From assembly GCF_024053505.1 (NCBI RefSeq), contig NZ_JAMXQS010000010.1, forward strand, positions 124,001 through 188,000: DNA of 64,000 nucleotides, written 5' to 3'. The position numbers and the translations under genes were made by a program. Numbering within the stretch: position 1 is the stretch's first letter; every line of letters begins with the position of its first letter. The DNA comes from Mesorhizobium liriopis. Lineage in GTDB: Bacteria; Pseudomonadota; Alphaproteobacteria; Rhizobiales; Rhizobiaceae. Shown here piece after piece: positions 1,615 through 24,246 of this stretch. The notes below the pieces were generated by a model. The model saw only the letters and a program-made list of their open reading frames with translations, was not told the origin of the DNA and made no database searches.

Positions 1615-4206
1615 TTACGATTTTTCTTCCAGCATATCCTTCACCGCCGTCGCCAACTGCTTCAGCGAGAAAGGCTTGGGCAGAAAACCGAACTGCGCAT
1701 CGGCCGGCAGGTGTTTGGCGAATGCATCTTCCGCATAGCCGGATACGAAGATGAATTTGATGTCCGGTTGGATCTGGCGCAACTCGCCGAGCAGTGTCGG
1801 ACCATCCATCTCCGGCATCACCACATCGGACACGACGATATCGACCTTGCCACCGACCGACTCGAACACTTCCAGCGCTTCCACGCCGGACGACGCTTCG
1901 AGCACGCGATACCCCTTGGAGGAAAGAGCGCGCATGCCGCCCATTCGGACAGCGTCCTCGTCTTCCACGAGAAGCACGGTGGCCGAGCCGGAAAGATCGC
2001 CGCTTGCCTGGGTGGGTTTCGGCGCGCTCGCAGGCTGCGCATCGCCAGCGGGTGCTTCAACGATAGCAGGCTGCTGCGCAGGAACATGGCGTGGCAAGAA
2101 GATGCGGAATGTGGCCCCCTCACCCGGCTCGGATTCACAGAAGATGAAGCCACCCGTCTGCTTGACGATGCCATAGACCATTGAAAGCCCGAGGCCTGTG
2201 CCCTTGCCGACCTCTTTCGTGGTGAAGAACGGCTCGAAAATCTGAGCCTTGATGTCGGCGGGAATGCCAGTGCCGCTATCGGCCACTTCCACCAGCACAT
2301 ACTCACCCGGGGTCAGCTCGCGATAACCCATGCTCTCGCTCTCAATAGCCGACACGTTACGCGTCCGCACGGTGACCTCGCCACCTTGAGGCATGGCATC
2401 GCGAGCGTTCACGGCGAGATTGACGATCACCTGCTCGAACTGCCCGAGATCGGCGCGGACCGGCCAAAGATCCCGGCCGTGTTCGATCTTGAAGTTCACT
2501 TCAGTGCCGACGAGGCGGATCAAAAGCATTCTCAAGTCGGCGAGCACATCGGTGAGGTTGAGCACCTCCGGCCGCAGGGTCTGGCGGCGCGAGAACGCAA
2601 GAAGCTGGCGCACGAGTGACGCCGCGCGGTTCGCGTTCTGCTTGATGTTCATGATGTCCGGGAAGGAAGGATCCGACGGACGCTGATTGGTCAGCAGCAG
2701 ATCGGAGGACATGATGATGGCTGTCAGAACATTGTTGAAGTCATGCGCGATGCCGCCGGCGAGCTGGCCGACCGCCTGCATCTTCTGGCTCTGAGCCATC
2801 TGCGCCTCGAGCGCCTTCTGCTCCGTGGTTTCGACGGCGTAGACGATGGCTGCTTCTTCGGCGCCTTCACCGTCAGTTCCATCGGCAACCGCATTGACGT
2901 AGAAGCGCATATGGCGCTCTCCACCGCCCGGAAGCTGCGTGTCGATCGGTGCGATGTCGGCTTGCCGGTGTCGCGCTTTCTGAAGCGCTGCCGCAAAGGC
3001 CGGGCGGTCGCGCTCATGGATCACCGTGTCGAGCTTGACATGCCGATCCACGGTGTCGCGATCCACCACGGACGCGAAAAGCTGGAGAAACGGCGCGTTG
3101 GTACGCAGAATGCGCCCGTCACGGTCCACGCCCGCAATGGCCATCGGTGTCGAGTTGAAAAAGCGCGTGAAACGGACCTCCGCCGCGCGGAGGTCAGCCG
3201 AGGCGTCCTCGCCCTGCGCGCGATTGAGAACGATGGTACGGGTGGGACCGACTGCACCGTCGCGGCTGGTGGTGACACGGTGGAGAAATCGAACAGGAAG
3301 CGCCTTGCCGCTTGCGGTCGCCAGATCGAGGTCGATCACCGCATTGCGGGTCGTGCCGGGATCCGCCTTCACGGAACGCACCAGCGCCATACCATCGCCC
3401 GCCACGATTTCCTTGAGCATCACGGCGCCGGGTACGAAACCGGCAAGGTCGATGCCGAGCCAGCCGGCGAGTGTCGCATTCACGTAAGTGACGCGACCGT
3501 CCGGATCGGCGGCGAAGAATCCCGCAGGGGCATGATCGAGATGGTCGATGGCCTTTTGCAGGTCGAGAAAGAACCGCTCCTGCTCGGCACGCTCACGCGA
3601 GATATCCGCGAGCTGCCAAGCCGAAAGGAATTGCCGACGTCCGGGCACCGCGAACGGTCCCGCACGCAGACGATACCAACGCGCACCGGGCTCGGCGCCC
3701 GGGCGAATCGATTGGCCGAGACGGAATTCGCCATCGCCCTGCTGACCGTCTCTCAAACCCGTCGCGAGGCGCTCCACGATCGGCGAGGCTTCAGGTACGT
3801 CTGACAGAAGACCTTCCACCGTGCGCAGATCACCGGAACCGCTCGCGCCCGTCATTTCGCCATAGGCGCGGTTGGCATAGATCACGCGATCCTTGGCATC
3901 GGTCACGAGCAGGCCTTGCGGCATGGCGTCGATGAACGCCTTCGACATCTCATCACCGCTCGACTGCGGCGCAACGCGGATGAAGCCGACGGCGGTTGCG
4001 AAAAGGTAGCCCACGCCGATCATTGCGAGCACTCCTAAGAGACCGACCAGAAACGGCTCGCCGAGCTCATCGCGGAACAGGCTGAACAGAACAGCGGCCC
4101 CGATCAGCACAGCGACGAAGATCAGCAGGCGCGTAACAGCGCTCGGCGAGCCGCCCAGATCGATCACTGGCGTGGGATAGAAGTCGCTTTTTGGCCGCTC
4201 TGCCAT
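1615..4206 (-). CDS. cckA: Cell-cycle hybrid histidine kinase CckA
   Basis: Bifunctional kinase/phosphatase heading the CckA-ChpT-CtrA/CpdR phosphorelay that controls alphaproteobacterial cell division. The protein has 863 residues. Two membrane helices lie near residues 26-44 and 53-75. PAS-like sensory segments follow, including [13 protein letters not shown] and [13 protein letters not shown]. The HisKA box [11 protein letters not shown] has its phospho-acceptor at His488. Next come the ATPase N, G1 and G2 boxes ([30 protein letters not shown]). A C-terminal receiver ([19 protein letters not shown]) has its phospho-acceptor at Asp794. I chose ATG 4206 because of its AGAGGG ribosome-binding site and the conserved MAERPK start; the frame is open 25 codons further upstream. 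Confidence 0.97.
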
Positions 4207-4399
4207 GAACCCTCTGCGCCCGTCTCGCAGGCCCGTGTCAGCGGTGCTTGAATCACATTGCCCCGCCTCGCGGCAAGCCATGACGAAACTGTGCTGAAAG
4301 GCAAGGCATTCGAGCCGTGGAAGGGAGGGAAACGCAGCTTGCGGGTCCGCGCGGCAACGGTCTAGTCTCCGCCCAACTCACGCGAAGCGGGGATATCGG

Positions 4400-13929: not shown

Positions 13930-15308
<1,379 letters not shown>

Positions 15309-15364
15309 GAAATCCTGCCTGGCTGCCTCCATCCGAGATAAAGGGGCCGCGGATGGTGTCAACG

Positions 15365-15724
15365 CTACGAGAGGTCGCGCAGCCTTGCGCGTGCCGCGCC
15401 ATCGGCCTCAAAGATGGCGGCTACCAACTTGGCGCGATCGGGCTCGCTTTCGGCGTTCTCGTAGCGCTCGGCAAGCTCTGCCAAACCCCATGCCCCGACA
15501 GCACGCGCGCTGCCCTTGATCGTGTGCGCCAGCTCACCCGGCAGCGACTCGTTCGGCTCGGCCAACCGCTTTCCAAACAGTTCGGCCTGCTGGATGAAGG
15601 CGGTCAGCACTTCTGCTTCCAGCGCCCGATCATCGAAAGTTTGCCGGGCGAGATGATCGAGATCGAGCACCCTGCCCGCAGCCCCTTGATTTTGCTTGCT
15701 GCTGTCCGGTTGTCCACCGCTCAT
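15365..15724 (-). CDS. Histidine phosphotransfer (Hpt) domain protein
   Basis: 119-residue single-domain Hpt protein. The phosphorylatable histidine is His67 in [13 protein letters not shown], followed by an amphipathic helix ([13 protein letters not shown]) as in other Hpt bundles. It probably relays phosphate between a hybrid kinase and a response regulator; which ones cannot be told from sequence. It is not ChpT, the usual CckA partner, which has a different dimeric fold. It is divergent from the giant polar-protein gene and shares the upstream region containing a CtrA-type site. Confidence 0.88.
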
Positions 15725-15848
15725 CCCCTGAATCCTTCGTTAACACAGCGCTTTAAACTAGCGCTTCCCCATGCATCCGGGCTTAATGGCACGCAGTTTA
15801 TACGGTTCCACGAGGGATCGGCCCGATCAGGGGAACACCGCGCCTGCC

Positions 15849-15864
15849 GTTAACTTTATCTTAA
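15849..15864 (-). promoter_or_regulatory. CtrA-type binding site upstream of hpt and the giant gene
   Basis: On the minus strand the sequence reads TTAA-GATAAAG-TTAAC, a perfect match to the alphaproteobacterial CtrA consensus TTAA-N7-TTAAC. On the plus strand it also gives TTAA-N7-TTAA. It lies 124 bp before the hpt start and 144 bp before the giant gene's ATG at 16009. Additional TTAA half-sites lie nearby at 15740, 15753 and 15904. Binding itself is inferred. Confidence 0.6.
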
Positions 15865-16008
15865 AGTTTTAGGCTTCGGGCGCTTTTGCGTGTTTCCTTT
15901 GCTTAACGGCGCCTTTACCCTGTGGGATAGTGCATGAGTAGCCTTCCTCATCCGCCGGCGACCCCCGCGCCGGGCTTTTGGATAGGGCGAGTACAGGGTA
16001 GCGGCGAC

Positions 16009-19000
16009 ATGGCTCGAAATCCGTCAAGCACCAAGACCAGCAGCGACGTGTCGCGCGATCTTGATGACGACCTCGAACTCGACCTTTCGAGCAGCGATCT
16101 CGATTTCTCGATGGACGATCTGGAAGCGCAGATTTCCCAGGCCGCCGACGAGATCGTGCGCGAGGGCCGCAACGGTCAGGAGCCGGTCGCGGATGCCGCA
16201 CCCGCTTCTGTCGCCGCTGCTGCTGCGACGACCGTCGTTGCAACGTCAGAACCTGCTCGCCCGCGCATGTCGCCGCTCAAGCCGGAAGGTCATTCTCCTG
16301 CAAACGACGACTCCGCCGCTGCCACGACCACGATCGCCCGCCCGCCGCTGACCGAGCGCAAGCCTTCGAACGGCATTTACTGGGCCATGGCGCTGCTCTC
16401 GCTCGCCTGGATCGCGGGCGGCGTCGTGGTGGCCGACACGGTCGCTGCGCCCGGCCTGTGGAGCATCACGTCCCTTTCCGATTTCATTGCGCGTCCAGCC
16501 TTGCTCGGCGTGGTCGTCGGCGTGATCGTGCCGATCATGCTGTTCTGGGCATTTGCTGCTATGGTCCGCCGCGCACAGGAAATGCGCCTGGCCGCGGAAG
16601 CCATGACCGAAGCCGCCCTCCGCATCGCCGAGCCGGAGAGCGCCGCGCAGGAGCGCATGATGTCGGTCGGCCAGGCTGTGCGCCGCGAAGTGGCTGCCAT
16701 GAACGAGGGTATCGAGCGTACCCTCACCCGCGCGGTCGAACTCGAAACGCTGGTGCACACCGAGGTCAACCAGCTCGAGCGCTCCTATGCCGAAAACGAG
16801 AAGCGTATCCGCTCTCTCGTGGACGGCTTGGGCAGCGAGCGTGAGGCCGTGGTCAGCCACGCCGAGCGCGTGCGCGCGTCGATTTCCGGTGCCCACGAGA
16901 CCCTCAAGGATGAACTCTCGGCTGCCAGCGAGATCATCGGCAAGAACATTTCCGATGCTTCGTCCCATCTTTCCGGCGTCATCGCCGGCTCCGGCGACAG
17001 CCTGATCGAGCGCCTGAACGAGAGCGGCAAGTCGATCGCCGGCATCATCGACGAACGCCTCGACGGCATCGATGGCCGCATGAACGCGTCTGGCGAGCAA
17101 TTCGCCGGCCTGATCGACGCGCGCCTCGATGCGCTTCAGTCTCGCACGGAAGGCGCCGCTCAACACCTTTCCGCGGTCCTCGAAGAGCGCACCAGCGGCA
17201 TGGTCGCAGCGACCGATGAGGCGACACGCTTACTCAACGAGCGTTTCGATGCGCGTGTCACCGACATGCAGCGCTCGCTTTCCGAGGGCGGCGACGCCCT
17301 TCTCGGCGAGTTCGACGCCCGCGTGGCTGCCTTCGATGCTGGCGGCGAGCGACTTCACAACGCGCTCGATGGCCGCGCCCGCGCGATCAACGACACCTTG
17401 CTCGAACGCGCTCGCGAGATCGGTGACGCCTTCAACACCGGCCGTGACGAGTTCGCGCGCGTCGTGGAAGATAGCCGTGCCCGCATCGGCACGGATATCG
17501 CCAGCCTCGTGGATCACGCGTCCGAAATCATGGAAGCGCGCCGCATCGAACTGACCGACCGCTTCGCCGAAGGCCGCACTGAACTGTCGCGCATTCTGGA
17601 AGATGATCTGGCACGACTGGGTGATGCCCGCTCCAAGCTCGACGAGGGCATTGTCGAACAGGCCCGCCTGCTCGACGACCGCGCAGCCGCGCTCACCGAC
17701 CAGCTGGCCGCTGGCCGTTCTACGCTCGCCACGGCTCTGGAAAACGATCTGGAAAAGATCGCCGAGGCGCGCGGTGCTGTGGACGCCGTCTTCGCAGAGC
17801 ATACGCGCTTTATCGATGATCGCAGCAACGCGTTTGTCAGCCAACTGGCTGATGCCCGGTCCAAGCTTGCCGAAACGCTTGAAGACGATTTGAGCAAGCT
17901 TTCGGATGCACGCACTGCGGTTGACGCCGTCTTTACCGAGCAAAGCCGTTTCGCCGAGGAGCGTAGCGCGGCGTTCGCCGGGCAGCTGTCGGAAGCACGA
18001 GACGCCCTTTCCCGGACGCTGGAACACGACCTTGCGAAGCTCTCAGATGCCCGTGCGGCAGTGGACGCTGTGTTCGCAGAGCAGGGCCGCCTGACGGAAG
18101 AGCGCACCACAGCCTTTGCTGCTCGGTTGGCGGATGCGCGTGACGCACTCTCACGAACCCTCGAAGATGACCTTTCCAAGCTTTCCAACGCCCGCGCAGC
18201 GGTAGACGCCGTGTTCGCCGAGCAAGGCCGTTTTGCCGAAGAGCGGACCGCTGCTTTCGCCGGTCAGTTGGCGGATGCCCGTCAGATCCTTTCGCGCTCG
18301 CTCGAGGACGATCTCGCTCGGTTGTCCCAGACGCGCGGCGAGATCGACGCGCTGGTTTCACAGCACGCCGATATGCTCGAAGCGAGCCGCGCTGGCATGA
18401 CTGCGGCGCTGAACACAGAACTGGCCAAGTTCGATCAGACCCGCGCTGCGCTTGATGATGCCATTGGTGAGCACGTGCTGAAACTGGCGGAGGGCCGTAC
18501 CGGTCTGTCCGACGCGCTTGAAACCGATATCGCCCGCCTGGGCGAGCTTCGCACCGGCATTGACGAGGCCCTGAACGAGCAGCTTCGCCGGATCGAAGAC
18601 GGCCGCAACGCGCTGGCTCATTCGCTCAACGACGATCTGCAGAAGCTCGGTCACACCCGCACGCAGATGGACGAATCCATCGCCAAGCATATCGGCCGCC
18701 TCGCTGAAGGCCGTAGCCTGCTGGCGCGTGCGCTCGACAACGACCTGATAAAGCTGGGCGACGCCCGCTCTTCCATCGACGGTCTGGTGTCACGCCAGGT
18801 CGAGAAGCTGGCCGAGGGTCGCGATATCCTGCGTCGCGCGCTGGAAGCCGATCTTTCGAAGATCGAAGAGTCGCGCGCCGATGTCGCCGTGTCGCTCTCG
18901 ACCCTGATCGCCGATCAGGCCAAGCATCTCGAAAGCGGCCGCGAAATGCTTTCGCGCACGCTGGAGAACGATCTCGAAAAACTGTCGGTCGCCCGTTCCT

Positions 19001-22000
19001 CCATCGACGGCCTCGTGTCTCGTCAGGTCGAGAAACTTGCCGAAGGCCGCGACATCCTGCGTCGCGCTCTGGAAAGCGACCTGCAGCATGTGGAAAAGGC
19101 GCGCATCGACATCGATGACATGCTGAACGGCCTCATCAGCCGTCAGGCTGAACAGCTCGCGGAAGGCCGTGAGACGCTTTCCCGTTCGCTCGAAGCCGAC
19201 CTCGCCAAGCTGGGCGAAAACCGAGCCTCGATCGATGAGATGGTCGCAGCCCAGGTTGGTAAGCTCGCCGAGGGTCGTGAGCGCCTGCGCGAGGCCATGG
19301 AAGCCGACCTTCACGCTCTCGCCGAAGGTCGCGCAGACCTCGACGCCCGCATGAACGCAATCGCTGCGGAACATCAGCGCATGGTCACCGAAGGCCGCGG
19401 GAACCTCGCCCGCGCGCTCGAAACTGATCTCGCCAAGCTCGCCGACAGCCGCGCTGCCGTCGATGACATGATGGCCATCCATATCGAGCGCATGGGCGAA
19501 GGCCGCGCCGACCTGCAGCGCGCGCTGGAAGACGACCTCTCCCGCCTCGCCTCCTCGCGCGGTGATCTCGACGATCGCGTCAAAAGTCTTTCCGCCGAGC
19601 ATGAGCGGCGTCTTATTGAGAGCCGCGACGAGCTGGCCCGTGCCTTTGAAGCCGATCTCGTTCGTCTCGCTGAGGAGCGCACGGCGCTCGACGGAATGCT
19701 GGTTGCCCAGGTCGGCAAGCTCGCGGAAGGTCGCGAGGCTCTGTCGGATGCGCTCGAAGCCGATCTGGCGCGCCTCGCTGAAAGCCGCGCCTCGGTCGAC
19801 AGGCTCCTCTCCGATCATTCGCGCGTTCTTTCCGATGGCCGCGCCGAGCTGGCGCGTGCGGTCGAGACCGATCTTTCACGTCTGGCCGATGCCCGTTCGG
19901 AACTCGATGCGCGCATTGGCACCATCGTCGGCGAGCACGAGCGGTCGCTGGCTTCGGGTCGCGAGGCGCTTTCACGTGCGCTCGAACAGGATCTCGAAAA
20001 ACTCGCATCGAGCCGCGCCTCGATCGACGGGATGGTGACGGGTCAAGTCGAGAAGCTGGCTGAAGGCCGTGACATCCTGCGTCGCGCGCTGGAAGCGGAC
20101 CTGTCCCGCTTGGCCGACAGCCGTGCCTCGCTCGATGCGATGGCGAAGGATCATGCCCAGCGCTTCATCGAAACGCGCAACGCCATGGGCGATGCGCTCG
20201 AAGACGACATCGCGAAGCTGTCTCAGGCTCGCGACGCCATCGCCGCGGCCGTTACGAGCATTGCGAAGGAGCAGGCTGCAACGCTCGCGGCGGGTCGCGA
20301 AGAGCTGGCGCGCTCGCTCGAAGACGATCTGGCCAAGCTGAACGAGAGCCGTGTCGCCATCGATGCCATGGTGACAGCGCAGTCCGACCGCATGGCGGAA
20401 GACCGCGATCGGTTGCGCGCAGCCCTCGATGCCGACCTTCTCAAGCTCGAAGAAGCGAAGGCTTCGGTGGAAGCGCTTGCCAACATTCAGGTGCAGAAGC
20501 TGGCCGAAGGACGCGACGTGCTGTCCCGCGCACTGGCGGAAGACCTTGGCAAGCTTGAGGAACACCGCGCTTCGATCGATACGCTCGTTTCGAGCCAAGT
20601 CGAAAAGCTGGCTGAGGGCCGCGCCATCCTGCGTCGCGCGCTGCAGGCTGATCTCGATCAGATCACCGAGGCTCGCGCCGACTTCGAGGGCCGCGTGGGT
20701 GAGGAAATCAACGGTCTCGCCGATCGACGCCTCGCCTTCACCCGTGCGCTCGATGAAGATCTCGATCGCTTGGGTGACGCCCGCACCGAACTCGACCGCC
20801 ACTTAGCCTCGCATATCGAGACTTTCGCTGATCGTCGCACAGAAATCACCGGCGCGTTGGCGGGTGATGTCGCCCGCATCGATGAGGTCTTCCGCGCCCA
20901 TGCCGACAATATCGGCACCCGCACCGCCGACCTGTCGCGCGCTTTGGAAGGCGGCGTGCAGAATGTGCGCGAAATTCTCGAACTGGGCGCCGCCAACGCC
21001 GCAGGCGCGCTCCACGACAAGGTGATCGAGCTGACCACCATGTTGGTGGAAGAGTCCGGCCAGGCGCTCAACGACGCCGACGAGCGTTTGGCTCGCCGCG
21101 CAGAGCAGACGGCAGAAGCCTTGGCGGCTCGCACGCATGAGATCGCCGACACCTTCGATCGCGCGGACCGCCGTCTGGTCGAGCGTGCCGAAGCAACTTC
21201 TGCTGCGATGCTCGCGCGAAACGAGAATGCAGCAGGTGCGATGTCCGACCTCGCGGTTGACCTCGAGCGCCGCTTCGAGACGGCCCAGCGCAACCTCGCA
21301 GAGCGGGTCGAACTGTCGAGCGCAGACCTTTCGAACCGCGTCGAGAGCTTGGCTTCCGCGCTGCAAGAGCGCACCGGCGAGATCGCCGCGAACTTCGAAC
21401 GCGCGGATGCGATCCTGACGGAACGCGCCGTACAGACGGCGATGGAAGTCGCCGGCCGCGGCGCAGAGATGTCGCGCGAGTTGCATGACCGTGCCCGCGA
21501 AATGGTAGAAGGCTTTGAGGACGCCGGTCGCAAGCTGGCAACTCAGACCGAAGCCAATGCCGAGGCGATCACCGCCCGCGCCGCCGATCTCGGCCGCGAA
21601 TTGTCCGATGCGGCTCGCTCGGTCAACGCCTCGTTCGACGTATCCGGTCGCACCCTTGCCGAGCGTGCTTCGGCGGTCGGCGAGACCTTGGCCGCCAAGG
21701 CCGCGGAGATCGGACAGATCTTCCAGGATGCGGATCGCCAGCTCGGCACCCGCAACGAGGAAACGGCCCGTGCCGTGGCGCTGCGCGCCGAAGAGATCGT
21801 CCGTATCTTCGAGGATGGCGACCAGAAGCTCGTAGCACGCGCCGTCGATACGGCCAGCACGCTCGCCCGTCGCGCCGTTGAGCTCGTCAAGACGTTCGAA
21901 GACGCGGACGGGCGAATTGCCCGCCGTGTCGAGCAGGTCGCGGGCGAACTCACGGCACGCGCCGAAGCAATTGGTGGTTCCTTCGAGGAGGCCGAACGCC

Positions 22001-24246
22001 AGTTGGCCGCCCATGTCGATCTGACCGCAGCCTCGCTCGGTGCCCGTGCCAACGAAATCGCCGGCGTGTTCGACGATGTGGATCGTCGTATCACCGCCCG
22101 CATCGGCCGCAGCGCGGCCGAGATCGGCGCACGTGCTGGCGACATCACGGAAAGCCTCGAAAAGGCGCAGACGCGCGTGGTCGAGATTTCCGAGCGCGCC
22201 AGCGAGCAGTTGGAAGAGCGCGCCGGTCAGTTGGCCGACGTTTTCACTCGCGCCGAGGAGCGTGTCGTCGACATGTCCCGCCGCACGGCCGACGACCTCG
22301 GCGGTCAGGTGGAGGCGCTGTCGTCGCGCTTCGATGAGGCAGCACAGCGCATCAGCGGCCGCATCGTTGCAACCGGCAACGAGCTCGACGCTCGCACTCG
22401 CGCCATCGACACAGCTATCGTTTCAGCCGCCGAGCGTCTCGCCATCGGCACCGATGCCGCGGTCGGGCGCGTCACCGAACAGCTCGGCGAGGCGCAGGCG
22501 CGCATCACCGAGACTGCGGAAGCCTTGGGCCGCACCGTTCGCGCGTCCATCGCGGATGGTGAGCGCCAACTCTCGGCACGTGCCGATGTCATCTCGAACA
22601 CCTTCGCGGTGGTCGGGCAGCACATCACGGAGGCCACCAACGAGGCTGCGCGCAATATTGGCGACAACACGCGCGAGATCAGCCGCATTCTGGACGAGCG
22701 CACCAATGCGATTGCCGGTGTGCTCGACAACACGGCCCGTCCGCTCGTGGAACGCTTCATGACAGGCGGCAACGAGTTCCAGCGTGCCATTGAAGCTACC
22801 ACGGCCCGTGCCGCAGAGCGCTTGCGTGCTGAAAGCGAAGCGGTTCGGGGCGAGTTCGCCCGCAGCACCGAGGAAACGATACAGGCCGCGTCGTCTGCGG
22901 GTGATCGCCTCACCGGTGGCGTCGGCGAGCTGGTCGAGAAGATTTCCGGATCGAGCCAGCAGCTCAACGAACTGGTCGACCTCGCCAAGGAGAGCCTGGA
23001 AACCGTCGATCGGCGCCTCAACCAGAGCACGCAGCATTTTGCGGCGAGCACTGAGAAGGCCGCGCAGACTTTTGCCTCCTCAGCGCGTCTCATCGACGCC
23101 AATGTCGGCCGCGTGGCGGATATGTCGTCGCAGACGCTCACCGAAGTGGCGAGCATCGCCAGCCGCTTCGAGGAGCATGCGCGCCTGTTGACGACCGCCT
23201 CCGACCTCCTCGGCTCGGCACAATCCAACCTCGTCTCCACGCTGGACGATCGCCAGAACGCGCTCGAAGACTTGGCCGTGTCGCTGGTCAGAAAGTCGGA
23301 AGACATCGAGCGCCTGATGCGGTCCTTCGAGTCCTATATCGGTGACGTCCTCGACAAGGCGCAGGATCGCACCAAGGCGACGACGGAAGGCATCCGTGGT
23401 GCGATTACCGAAGTGGTCGAAGCTGCAACCCAGCGCTTCACCGATGCGACGGAAGAATTGCGCCGCACAGCCGGCTCGATCCGCTCCGAGCTGTCGGAAA
23501 CACGCGCGGAACTGAAGCGCGGCGTGCTCGACATGCCGGAAGAGGCTAAGCAGTCAACGACCGCTATCCGCCGTGCCGTGAGCGAGCAAATCAATGCGCT
23601 CAAGGAACTTTCGGATATCGTGGCCCGGACCGGCCGCACCGTCGATATCGTAGAACCGCGCCCCGCACCTCGCCAGGAGACGCCGCGCCCGCCGGAATCG
23701 CCCCGTCCGCAGGCCGCGGTGCGTCAGCCGGATGCTGAAGTCGAAGCCGATCTGCGAGGCACGCTCGACGGCAATGTGACGGTTCTACCGGCCCGCGAGC
23801 AGCGCCCAGCCGAAGCGCCGAAGCCTGTGCGTAAGCCTGAGCCGGTTCAGGAAGCGGGCCAGCCCGCCACAGCACCTGCTCTCAAGACCGAAGACAACGC
23901 AGTCGGCGGTATGCTCGACTCGCTGAATTCGCTCTCGGTCGATATCGCACGCGCCATCGACCACGACGCCTCGGTCGAGCTGTGGGATCGCTATCGCCGC
24001 GGCGAGCGCGATATCTTCACGCGCCGCCTCTACACCCTGAAGGGCCAGCAGACTTTCGAGGAAACGAAACGCAAGTATCAGGCCGACCCGGAATTCCGCG
24101 CGATCGTCGATCACTATTGCGAGGATTTCCAGACGCTGATCCGCCAAGTCGCCAAGACAGACCGGGCGGCGACGCAGAAGTATCTCACTTCCGATACGGG
24201 CAAGGTTTACACGATGCTCGCTCACGCATCAGGGCGGCTAAAATAG
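16009..24246 (+). CDS. gpr: Giant coiled-coil polar-growth scaffold, GPR/RgsE-like
   Basis: About 2,745 residues. The N-terminal ~110 residues are acidic and disordered (DLDDDLELDLSSSDLD), followed by two membrane helices at ~122-141 and ~164-188. Almost all the rest is predicted helix: array 1 (about residues 529-1630), array 2 (about 1715-2150), a Pro-rich linker (~2560-2610), and a conserved C-terminal domain (ELWDRYRRGERDIFTRRLY, YLTSDTGKVYTMLAHASGR). This architecture matches the apolipoprotein-like growth-pole-ring protein of Agrobacterium (GPR, about 2,115 residues as I recall) and Sinorhizobium RgsE, which organise unipolar growth. The present protein is notably longer. ATG 16009 starts the MARNPSS sequence; an in-frame ATG at 15934 would add 25 residues. 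Confidence 0.9.
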   Translation: MARNPSSTKTSSDVSRDLDDDLELDLSSSDLDFSMDDLEAQISQAADEIVREGRNGQEPVADAAPASVAAAAATTVVATSEPARPRMSPLKPEGHSPANDDSAAATTTIARPPLTERKPSNGIYWAMALLSLAWIAGGVVVADTVAAPGLWSITSLSDFIARPALLGVVVGVIVPIMLFWAFAAMVRRAQEMRLAAEAMTEAALRIAEPESAAQERMMSVGQAVRREVAAMNEGIERTLTRAVELETLVHTEVNQLERSYAENEKRIRSLVDGLGSEREAVVSHAERVRASISGAHETLKDELSAASEIIGKNISDASSHLSGVIAGSGDSLIERLNESGKSIAGIIDERLDGIDGRMNASGEQFAGLIDARLDALQSRTEGAAQHLSAVLEERTSGMVAATDEATRLLNERFDARVTDMQRSLSEGGDALLGEFDARVAAFDAGGERLHNALDGRARAINDTLLERAREIGDAFNTGRDEFARVVEDSRARIGTDIASLVDHASEIMEARRIELTDRFAEGRTELSRILEDDLARLGDARSKLDEGIVEQARLLDDRAAALTDQLAAGRSTLATALENDLEKIAEARGAVDAVFAEHTRFIDDRSNAFVSQLADARSKLAETLEDDLSKLSDARTAVDAVFTEQSRFAEERSAAFAGQLSEARDALSRTLEHDLAKLSDARAAVDAVFAEQGRLTEERTTAFAARLADARDALSRTLEDDLSKLSNARAAVDAVFAEQGRFAEERTAAFAGQLADARQILSRSLEDDLARLSQTRGEIDALVSQHADMLEASRAGMTAALNTELAKFDQTRAALDDAIGEHVLKLAEGRTGLSDALETDIARLGELRTGIDEALNEQLRRIEDGRNALAHSLNDDLQKLGHTRTQMDESIAKHIGRLAEGRSLLARALDNDLIKLGDARSSIDGLVSRQVEKLAEGRDILRRALEADLSKIEESRADVAVSLSTLIADQAKHLESGREMLSRTLENDLEKLSVARSSIDGLVSRQVEKLAEGRDILRRALESDLQHVEKARIDIDDMLNGLISRQAEQLAEGRETLSRSLEADLAKLGENRASIDEMVAAQVGKLAEGRERLREAMEADLHALAEGRADLDARMNAIAAEHQRMVTEGRGNLARALETDLAKLADSRAAVDDMMAIHIERMGEGRADLQRALEDDLSRLASSRGDLDDRVKSLSAEHERRLIESRDELARAFEADLVRLAEERTALDGMLVAQVGKLAEGREALSDALEADLARLAESRASVDRLLSDHSRVLSDGRAELARAVETDLSRLADARSELDARIGTIVGEHERSLASGREALSRALEQDLEKLASSRASIDGMVTGQVEKLAEGRDILRRALEADLSRLADSRASLDAMAKDHAQRFIETRNAMGDALEDDIAKLSQARDAIAAAVTSIAKEQAATLAAGREELARSLEDDLAKLNESRVAIDAMVTAQSDRMAEDRDRLRAALDADLLKLEEAKASVEALANIQVQKLAEGRDVLSRALAEDLGKLEEHRASIDTLVSSQVEKLAEGRAILRRALQADLDQITEARADFEGRVGEEINGLADRRLAFTRALDEDLDRLGDARTELDRHLASHIETFADRRTEITGALAGDVARIDEVFRAHADNIGTRTADLSRALEGGVQNVREILELGAANAAGALHDKVIELTTMLVEESGQALNDADERLARRAEQTAEALAARTHEIADTFDRADRRLVERAEATSAAMLARNENAAGAMSDLAVDLERRFETAQRNLAERVELSSADLSNRVESLASALQERTGEIAANFERADAILTERAVQTAMEVAGRGAEMSRELHDRAREMVEGFEDAGRKLATQTEANAEAITARAADLGRELSDAARSVNASFDVSGRTLAERASAVGETLAAKAAEIGQIFQDADRQLGTRNEETARAVALRAEEIVRIFEDGDQKLVARAVDTASTLARRAVELVKTFEDADGRIARRVEQVAGELTARAEAIGGSFEEAERQLAAHVDLTAASLGARANEIAGVFDDVDRRITARIGRSAAEIGARAGDITESLEKAQTRVVEISERASEQLEERAGQLADVFTRAEERVVDMSRRTADDLGGQVEALSSRFDEAAQRISGRIVATGNELDARTRAIDTAIVSAAERLAIGTDAAVGRVTEQLGEAQARITETAEALGRTVRASIADGERQLSARADVISNTFAVVGQHITEATNEAARNIGDNTREISRILDERTNAIAGVLDNTARPLVERFMTGGNEFQRAIEATTARAAERLRAESEAVRGEFARSTEETIQAASSAGDRLTGGVGELVEKISGSSQQLNELVDLAKESLETVDRRLNQSTQHFAASTEKAAQTFASSARLIDANVGRVADMSSQTLTEVASIASRFEEHARLLTTASDLLGSAQSNLVSTLDDRQNALEDLAVSLVRKSEDIERLMRSFESYIGDVLDKAQDRTKATTEGIRGAITEVVEAATQRFTDATEELRRTAGSIRSELSETRAELKRGVLDMPEEAKQSTTAIRRAVSEQINALKELSDIVARTGRTVDIVEPRPAPRQETPRPPESPRPQAAVRQPDAEVEADLRGTLDGNVTVLPAREQRPAEAPKPVRKPEPVQEAGQPATAPALKTEDNAVGGMLDSLNSLSVDIARAIDHDASVELWDRYRRGERDIFTRRLYTLKGQQTFEETKRKYQADPEFRAIVDHYCEDFQTLIRQVAKTDRAATQKYLTSDTGKVYTMLAHASGRLK
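17593..20871 (+). repeat. Array 1: 29 helical repeats with 36/40/47-residue spacing
   Basis: Inside the giant gene. A motif of the form (A/S/T)LExDL recurs 29 times, from ILEDDL at 17593 to ALAGDV at 20854. Spacing between successive motifs is 47 residues for the first five intervals, then 36 (17 times) or 40 (6 times); these sum exactly to the 1,087 residues between first and last. A typical unit reads ALEADLSKLADSRASIDxLV then SSQVEKLAEGRDILRR. Units 10/11 and 12/13 share an identical 20-residue block 76 residues apart, which suggests fairly recent duplication. Confidence 0.92.
21151..22431 (+). repeat. Array 2: FExAD helical repeats with 29/40-residue spacing
   Basis: Second array within the giant gene. 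An anchor of the form (x)FExAD recurs at 21151, 21271, 21391, 21511, 21631, 21718, 21805, 21892, 21979, 22066, 22153, 22240, 22327 and 22414. The first four intervals are 40 residues and the next nine are 29 (sum 421). A unit reads like TFEDADGRIARRVEQVAGEL then TARAEAIGG. The consensus differs from array 1, so the two arrays probably expanded separately. Confidence 0.88.

Follow-up and report, generated by a model that had tools for sequence, protein, structure and literature searches.

In known systems CckA is the upstream kinase of CtrA, and its phosphorylation of CtrA via ChpT is established in other Alphaproteobacteria. GPR/RgsE is a main organiser of the growing pole in Rhizobiales, and we know of no relation between it and the Caulobacter protein PodJ. 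The gene for PodJ, likewise a protein of polar organisation, has a CtrA motif in its promoter P1 (TTAA-N6-TTAA at −49; PMC4287350). Full CtrA sites as described for Caulobacter and Hyphomonas follow the form TTAA-N7-TTAA(C) (PMC4287350, PMC7200025), and a stricter consensus, TTAA-N6-GTTAAC, is quoted for Alphaproteobacteria (PMC7003649). The targets reported for CtrA include flagella, pili and the cell cycle in S. meliloti (PMC4433202), and division, cell wall and outer membrane in Brucella (PMC10787603). In Agrobacterium, L,D-transpeptidases have been linked to polar growth, and CtrA motifs have been predicted before the genes of these enzymes (PMC11527210). The giant helical proteins GPR of Agrobacterium (2115 aa) and RgsE of Sinorhizobium (2089 aa) are described as having apolipoprotein domains together with a membrane region at the N-terminus, and RgsE homologs are reported in all Rhizobiales families; the main texts of both papers do not contain the terms CtrA and Hpt (PMC8262873, PMC7327166). 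Knock-down of RdsA in R. etli is reported to leave GPR expression normal and ctrA also unchanged, which is neutral for a link between CtrA and gpr (PMC9022086). No link of CtrA to gpr/rgsE or to a neighbouring Hpt protein was seen in the literature searched, and the site described here may already stand in published ChIP-seq data.

Like the Caulobacter and Hyphomonas sites, its box is intergenic and matches the consensus exactly, and other exact sites in the same genome stand near cell-division, envelope and flagellar genes. Unlike those sites (PMC4287350, PMC7200025), the target here would be a Rhizobiales polar-growth scaffold gene, the position relative to transcription would be near −79 to −64, and the spacer is conserved in relatives. 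An L,D-transpeptidase gene here also has an exact box, which recalls the Agrobacterium prediction; whereas that prediction came from a motif scan of a single genome (PMC11527210), the present box is accompanied by conservation across genera and by a fixed spacing to a promoter-like block. The regulator CtrA is itself known, and what is new is a candidate target site.

The box and its neighbouring genes

The window, by which we mean the whole analysed stretch of 64,000 nucleotides, holds a CtrA-type box, TTAAGATAAAGTTAAC, on the minus strand at 15849–15864 (plus-strand reading GTTAACTTTATCTTAA), 160 bases before the revised gpr start. The earlier note had read this site as an exact match to the CtrA consensus, and so it is: TTAA-N7-TTAAC occurs a single time in the 64 kb, where 100 dinucleotide shuffles give a mean of 0.01, and the box is again the sole exact match in the window when the stricter TTAA-N6-GTTAAC is applied. 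Two further boxes with one mismatch each, at 15903–15918 and 15729–15744, were set aside, no conserved counterpart of either being seen in the aligned relatives. The hpt–gpr intergenic region has a GC content of 0.57 and is somewhat AT-richer than most of the window. An Rfam scan of the window returned no family at the gathering score.

As the earlier note had placed it, the box lies between the gene of an Hpt protein and a giant gene, which diverge around it. On the minus strand, hpt (15365–15724) encodes a single Hpt-domain protein of 119 aa (Pfam PF01627) in which His67 is invariant in 16/16 aligned homologs, and the protein thus has both the domain and the phospho-accepting histidine of an Hpt phosphotransfer protein. 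Behind hpt come genes for a 2Fe-2S ferredoxin and a pyridine-nucleotide reductase (13930–15724 for the three), and a similar ferredoxin gene adjoins hpt in several relatives' loci too. On the plus strand, the giant gene (16009–24246) encodes a protein of 2745 aa with apolipoprotein A1/A4/E repeats, for which Pfam PF01442 scores 93.7 bits against a cutoff of 90 over six stretches (in the 2770-aa version that starts at 15934), and two hydrophobic N-terminal stretches were read by eye. Its start has been moved from 15934 and is probably the ATG at 16009, because the aligned relatives mostly begin MA[KR]. Judged by domain, size and relatives, the gene appears to be GPR/RgsE-like and fits the description of both GPR and RgsE; the likeness is one of description, and the protein is larger than either of its two described counterparts.

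The window also contains cckA (1615–4281, minus strand; NCBIfam equivalog NF046020, 1410.9 bits against a cutoff of 1000), whose presence the earlier note had drawn into its case for CtrA. The gene is real, but its nearness to the box (11.6 kb) carries no weight; ctrA is encoded on another contig, and the presence of CckA in the window is context only and not evidence for the CtrA reading. The ctrA gene itself is recognised by NF045991 (420.5 bits against a cutoff of 350), and its product is 82% identical to an approximate CtrA sequence of Caulobacter across 226 aa. As a check on autoregulation, 3.7 kb around ctrA were scanned in this genome, and no box at ≤1 mismatch was found there.

Conservation of the box and of the surrounding element

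The relatives compared at gpr are the best 80 of 569 and thus the nearest, 48 of them Mesorhizobium by title and the remainder including Aminobacter, Pseudaminobacter, Nitratireductor, Chelativorans, Shinella and others; many are close kin and not independent. A gpr start was obtained for 79 of the 80, one locus having none, and another locus cut at a contig end was counted as a miss. Within 450 bases upstream of gpr, a box at ≤1 mismatch is present in 73/79 of this set drawn from the best 80 of 569, compared with 3/79 for the reversed pattern, and 68/79 have it in minus-strand orientation between −149 and −182 from the gpr start, with the window at −160. The earlier note had named absence of the box from close relatives as a finding that would tell against its proposal; this was checked and is not so, and because relatives keep the box ahead of gpr, CtrA control of this polar-growth gene is a good hypothesis.

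A wider sample took one genome per genus. Hpt homologs were found in 53/61 such genomes and 52 loci were fetched, leaving aside a weak match in one genome and a second match in another. By a strict pattern, a GPR-type N-terminal stretch stands divergent beside hpt in 38/52 of these loci, some of which are too short to show it. Fifty of the 52 intergenic regions were counted, with the own genome and one region of more than 900 bases left out, and five of the rows kept have no neighbour recognised as GPR by the pattern. In these hpt–gpr regions a box at ≤1 mismatch is present in 39/50; the reversed pattern gives 9, and 40 shuffles average 3.7. Exact boxes number 7, against 1 reversed and 0.1 shuffled. 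Within the same family the count is 27/31 regions against 3 reversed, while the other families of the order show a weak excess (12/19 against 6). Further exact boxes include TTAAAATAAGGTTAAC in genome G010 and TTAAAAAATGGTTAAC in G048 and G051; the complement of the latter contains TTAACCAT, which is a CtrA motif used in PMC11527210.

Conservation reaches beyond the half-sites. In an alignment of 31 sequences, comprising the window and 30 loci picked for variety from the 79 relatives, the best conserved 16-base interval upstream of gpr falls in the box (mean identity 0.92, against 0.34 just upstream). The whole conserved element occupies 15849–15871 on the plus strand of the window, where it reads GTTAACTTTATCTTAAAGTTTTA; its form in relatives is GTTAACCyTATrTTTAAAsTTTTA, and the window matches 17/24 consensus positions. 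Being one base shorter than the relatives' GTTAACCyTATrTTTAAA, the window attains an exact N7 spacing. This genome has probably derived its perfect match from the conserved element, because the relatives usually deviate at one position (TAAA at N7, or TTAA at N8) and an exact box is found in only 1/79 of those among the best 80 of 569. A free spacer is a usual property of CtrA sites, with no strict requirement for it, whereas at gpr the spacer CCnTATn is conserved in relatives. The TTTTA tail beyond the half-sites is also conserved in 15 sequences chosen for high score, and the TTAACC and TTTAAA positions are invariant in 15/15 of these (chosen for a score of at least 20/24). An 18-base form of the element, GTTAACCNTATNTTTAAA, occurs in 12/61 genomes, once in each and always before a GPR-type gene, 109–228 bases ahead of the presumed start of a long ORF; the GPR stretch is present in 10/12 of these ORFs, and the other two resemble at their N-termini a locus that has the stretch. 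Elsewhere in the 61 genomes the 18-base element was sought and none was found outside gpr. GTTAACCNTATNTTTAAA is not a general regulon motif, because it occurs once per genome and each time before a GPR-type gene. Upstream of ftsE, scanned in 30 of 40 genomes with a match, a box is present in 18/30 loci and the reversed pattern in 0, and the spacers vary from genome to genome.

Between the box and gpr lie several promoter-like blocks. A conserved TACGATACG block (GTGyCAcTACGATACG), sought in the interval 35–85 bases after the box, starts exactly 60 bases after it in 72/74 loci with box and block, whereas the distance to the gpr ATG is variable. For Shinella and part of the Rhizobium-like relatives, this block stands 63 bases from sequences like GTTAACTTCCTGTTAA, which is complementary to the exact box TTAACAGGAAGTTAAC. 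The place of the relatives' −10-like block GTGCCACTACGATACG is 15909–15924 on the plus strand of the window, 60 bases from the box start, where the TACGATACG block has decayed and the window copy has diverged to GCGCCTTTACCCTGTG (9/16). The conserved GTTT..TT block GTTTCCTTT (15892–15900, plus strand) may be a weak −35 region of gpr, and the GTACAGGGTA block (15991–16000, plus strand), strongly conserved in relatives and placed before the gpr start, would be the ribosome-binding region. GTACAGGGTA also overlaps an arm at 15993–16006 that is complementary to 15910–15923 in the window. A generic promoter scan of the intergenic region returned no plus-strand sigma-70 promoter. If TACGAT is the −10 element, the box would start near −79 relative to the transcription start, compared with a CtrA box near −39 in an example of activation described for Caulobacter (PMC4287350).

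On the hpt side, six loci carry TTATCCACA, a perfect likeness of a DnaA box, next to a GTTAA half-site, at −222 to −229. DnaA boxes were rejected as a general hpt-side feature, TTATCCACA being present in 6/78 of the relatives (best 80 of 569, with the locus cut at a contig end left out) and in 0/50 of the one-per-genus regions, and absent in the window.

Exact boxes in this and other genomes

In the 4.48 Mb genome, exact TTAA-N7-TTAAC has 14 matches at 12 places, compared with 2 for the reversed pattern, and the strict TTAA-N6-GTTAAC has 7 compared with 0. When one mismatch is allowed, 125 boxes stand against 151 for the reversed pattern, and because there is no genome-wide excess, boxes with one mismatch carry no weight alone. 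By our reading of the ORF lists, all 12 places of exact boxes lie between ORFs. A Pfam scan of ten chosen neighbouring genes, with the neighbour at the C20:254584 site left out, returned DUF1465, two outer-membrane beta-barrel proteins, a GNAT acetyltransferase, a BTLCP protease, a Mur ligase, an L,D-transpeptidase, a flagellin and an ABC ATPase, and one protein without a family. The Mur ligase is MurE by our reading, and the ABC ATPase is FtsE by NCBIfam. The exact box before the L,D-transpeptidase gene is on contig C18 (1501–1516 of locus L010). Exact boxes in this genome are enriched and stand before genes of CtrA type, and such neighbours fit the targets reported in S. meliloti and Brucella. 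Across 61 genomes, one per genus, the exact motif is commoner than the reversed pattern in 41 and not in 20, where the reversed pattern is equal or commoner.

Gene served, candidate binder and proposed role

The earlier note had assigned the box to an upstream region shared by hpt and the polar gene. The region does lie between two divergent starts, with the box about 125 bases from the hpt ATG and its minus-strand reading pointing towards hpt, but fixed-distance conserved blocks are seen only on the gpr side, and the hpt side of the alignment shows none apart from a loosely placed GTTAA. Genomes G032 and G035 keep the box at gpr with no hpt found by tblastn within 1.5 kb. In G032, hpt is about 10 kb from the gpr box, and the scanned stretch ahead of hpt yielded no box; the search of G035 gave no hpt at all, and its box is still at gpr. 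The box is best assigned to gpr, because of its fixed 60-base spacing to the gpr-side block and because G032 and G035 keep it without an adjacent hpt. Six Rhizobium-like loci carry a second box towards hpt, of the form ATGGTTAAC and with a TAAA-like distal half-site, and since this separate box is nearer hpt, hpt may have a box of its own in some Rhizobium-like relatives. Even with these further boxes and the orientation towards hpt in its favour, we find it quite unlikely that the box in the window serves hpt, or both divergent genes equally, when the hpt side has no fixed block and the box persists in G032 and G035.

An accidental match in AT-rich intergenic DNA, or an A/T tract resembling an UP element and bound by no specific regulator, would agree with the lack of genome-wide enrichment of one-mismatch boxes and with the somewhat lower GC of the region, but it is extremely improbable given the exact match in the window at 0.01 expected, the conservation well above that of the reversed pattern and the invariance of TTAACC and TTTAAA in the 15 sequences chosen for score. 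The element might instead belong chiefly to a different factor, or be a joint site for CtrA and a second factor, dedicated to gpr, with its CtrA likeness only partial. Such a composite site or other binder has some claim because the spacer and TTTTA tail are conserved at gpr while the ftsE boxes of related genera vary in spacer; the 18-base form, a single copy confined to gpr in 12/12 genomes having it, and the unusual distance from the putative −10 point the same way. Against this, the window genome and G004, G010 and G034 keep the TTAA half-sites at exact N7 with other positions changed, and CenR, the one other envelope regulator compared, was rejected as a binder, its motif in Rhodobacter (TGA-N8-TGA; PMC9275681) not fitting the element. 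On balance another factor or a composite is a minority possibility that we consider rather improbable. We think it unlikely, too, that gpr has in this element a composite switch found at no other promoter. In such a switch, CtrA half-sites within a 24-base element locked 60 bases from the promoter block would, with a second factor, tie the growth-pole ring to the cell cycle in a large part of the family, and the divergent Hpt protein may pass phosphate to or from the same relay, closing a loop between polar growth and CckA–CtrA.

The reading we favour, and hold to be likely, is that phosphorylated CtrA binds this box in the gpr/rgsE promoter region; the box is real and conserved, and is probably a functional CtrA-type site at a growth-pole-ring gene. 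With ctrA and cckA both present in the genome, CckA would act via ChpT to yield CtrA~P, which would bind both TTAA half-sites, some 160 bases ahead of gpr. This binding would alter gpr transcription during the cell cycle, and the polar ring protein would thereby be made when the new growth pole is set up. Activation of gpr is more likely than repression, and a placing near −79 would suit an activator acting from upstream. A conserved CtrA-type box at the gpr promoter would bear on how unipolar growth in Rhizobiales is timed, and would provide a direct, testable link from the cell-cycle master regulator to the growth pole.
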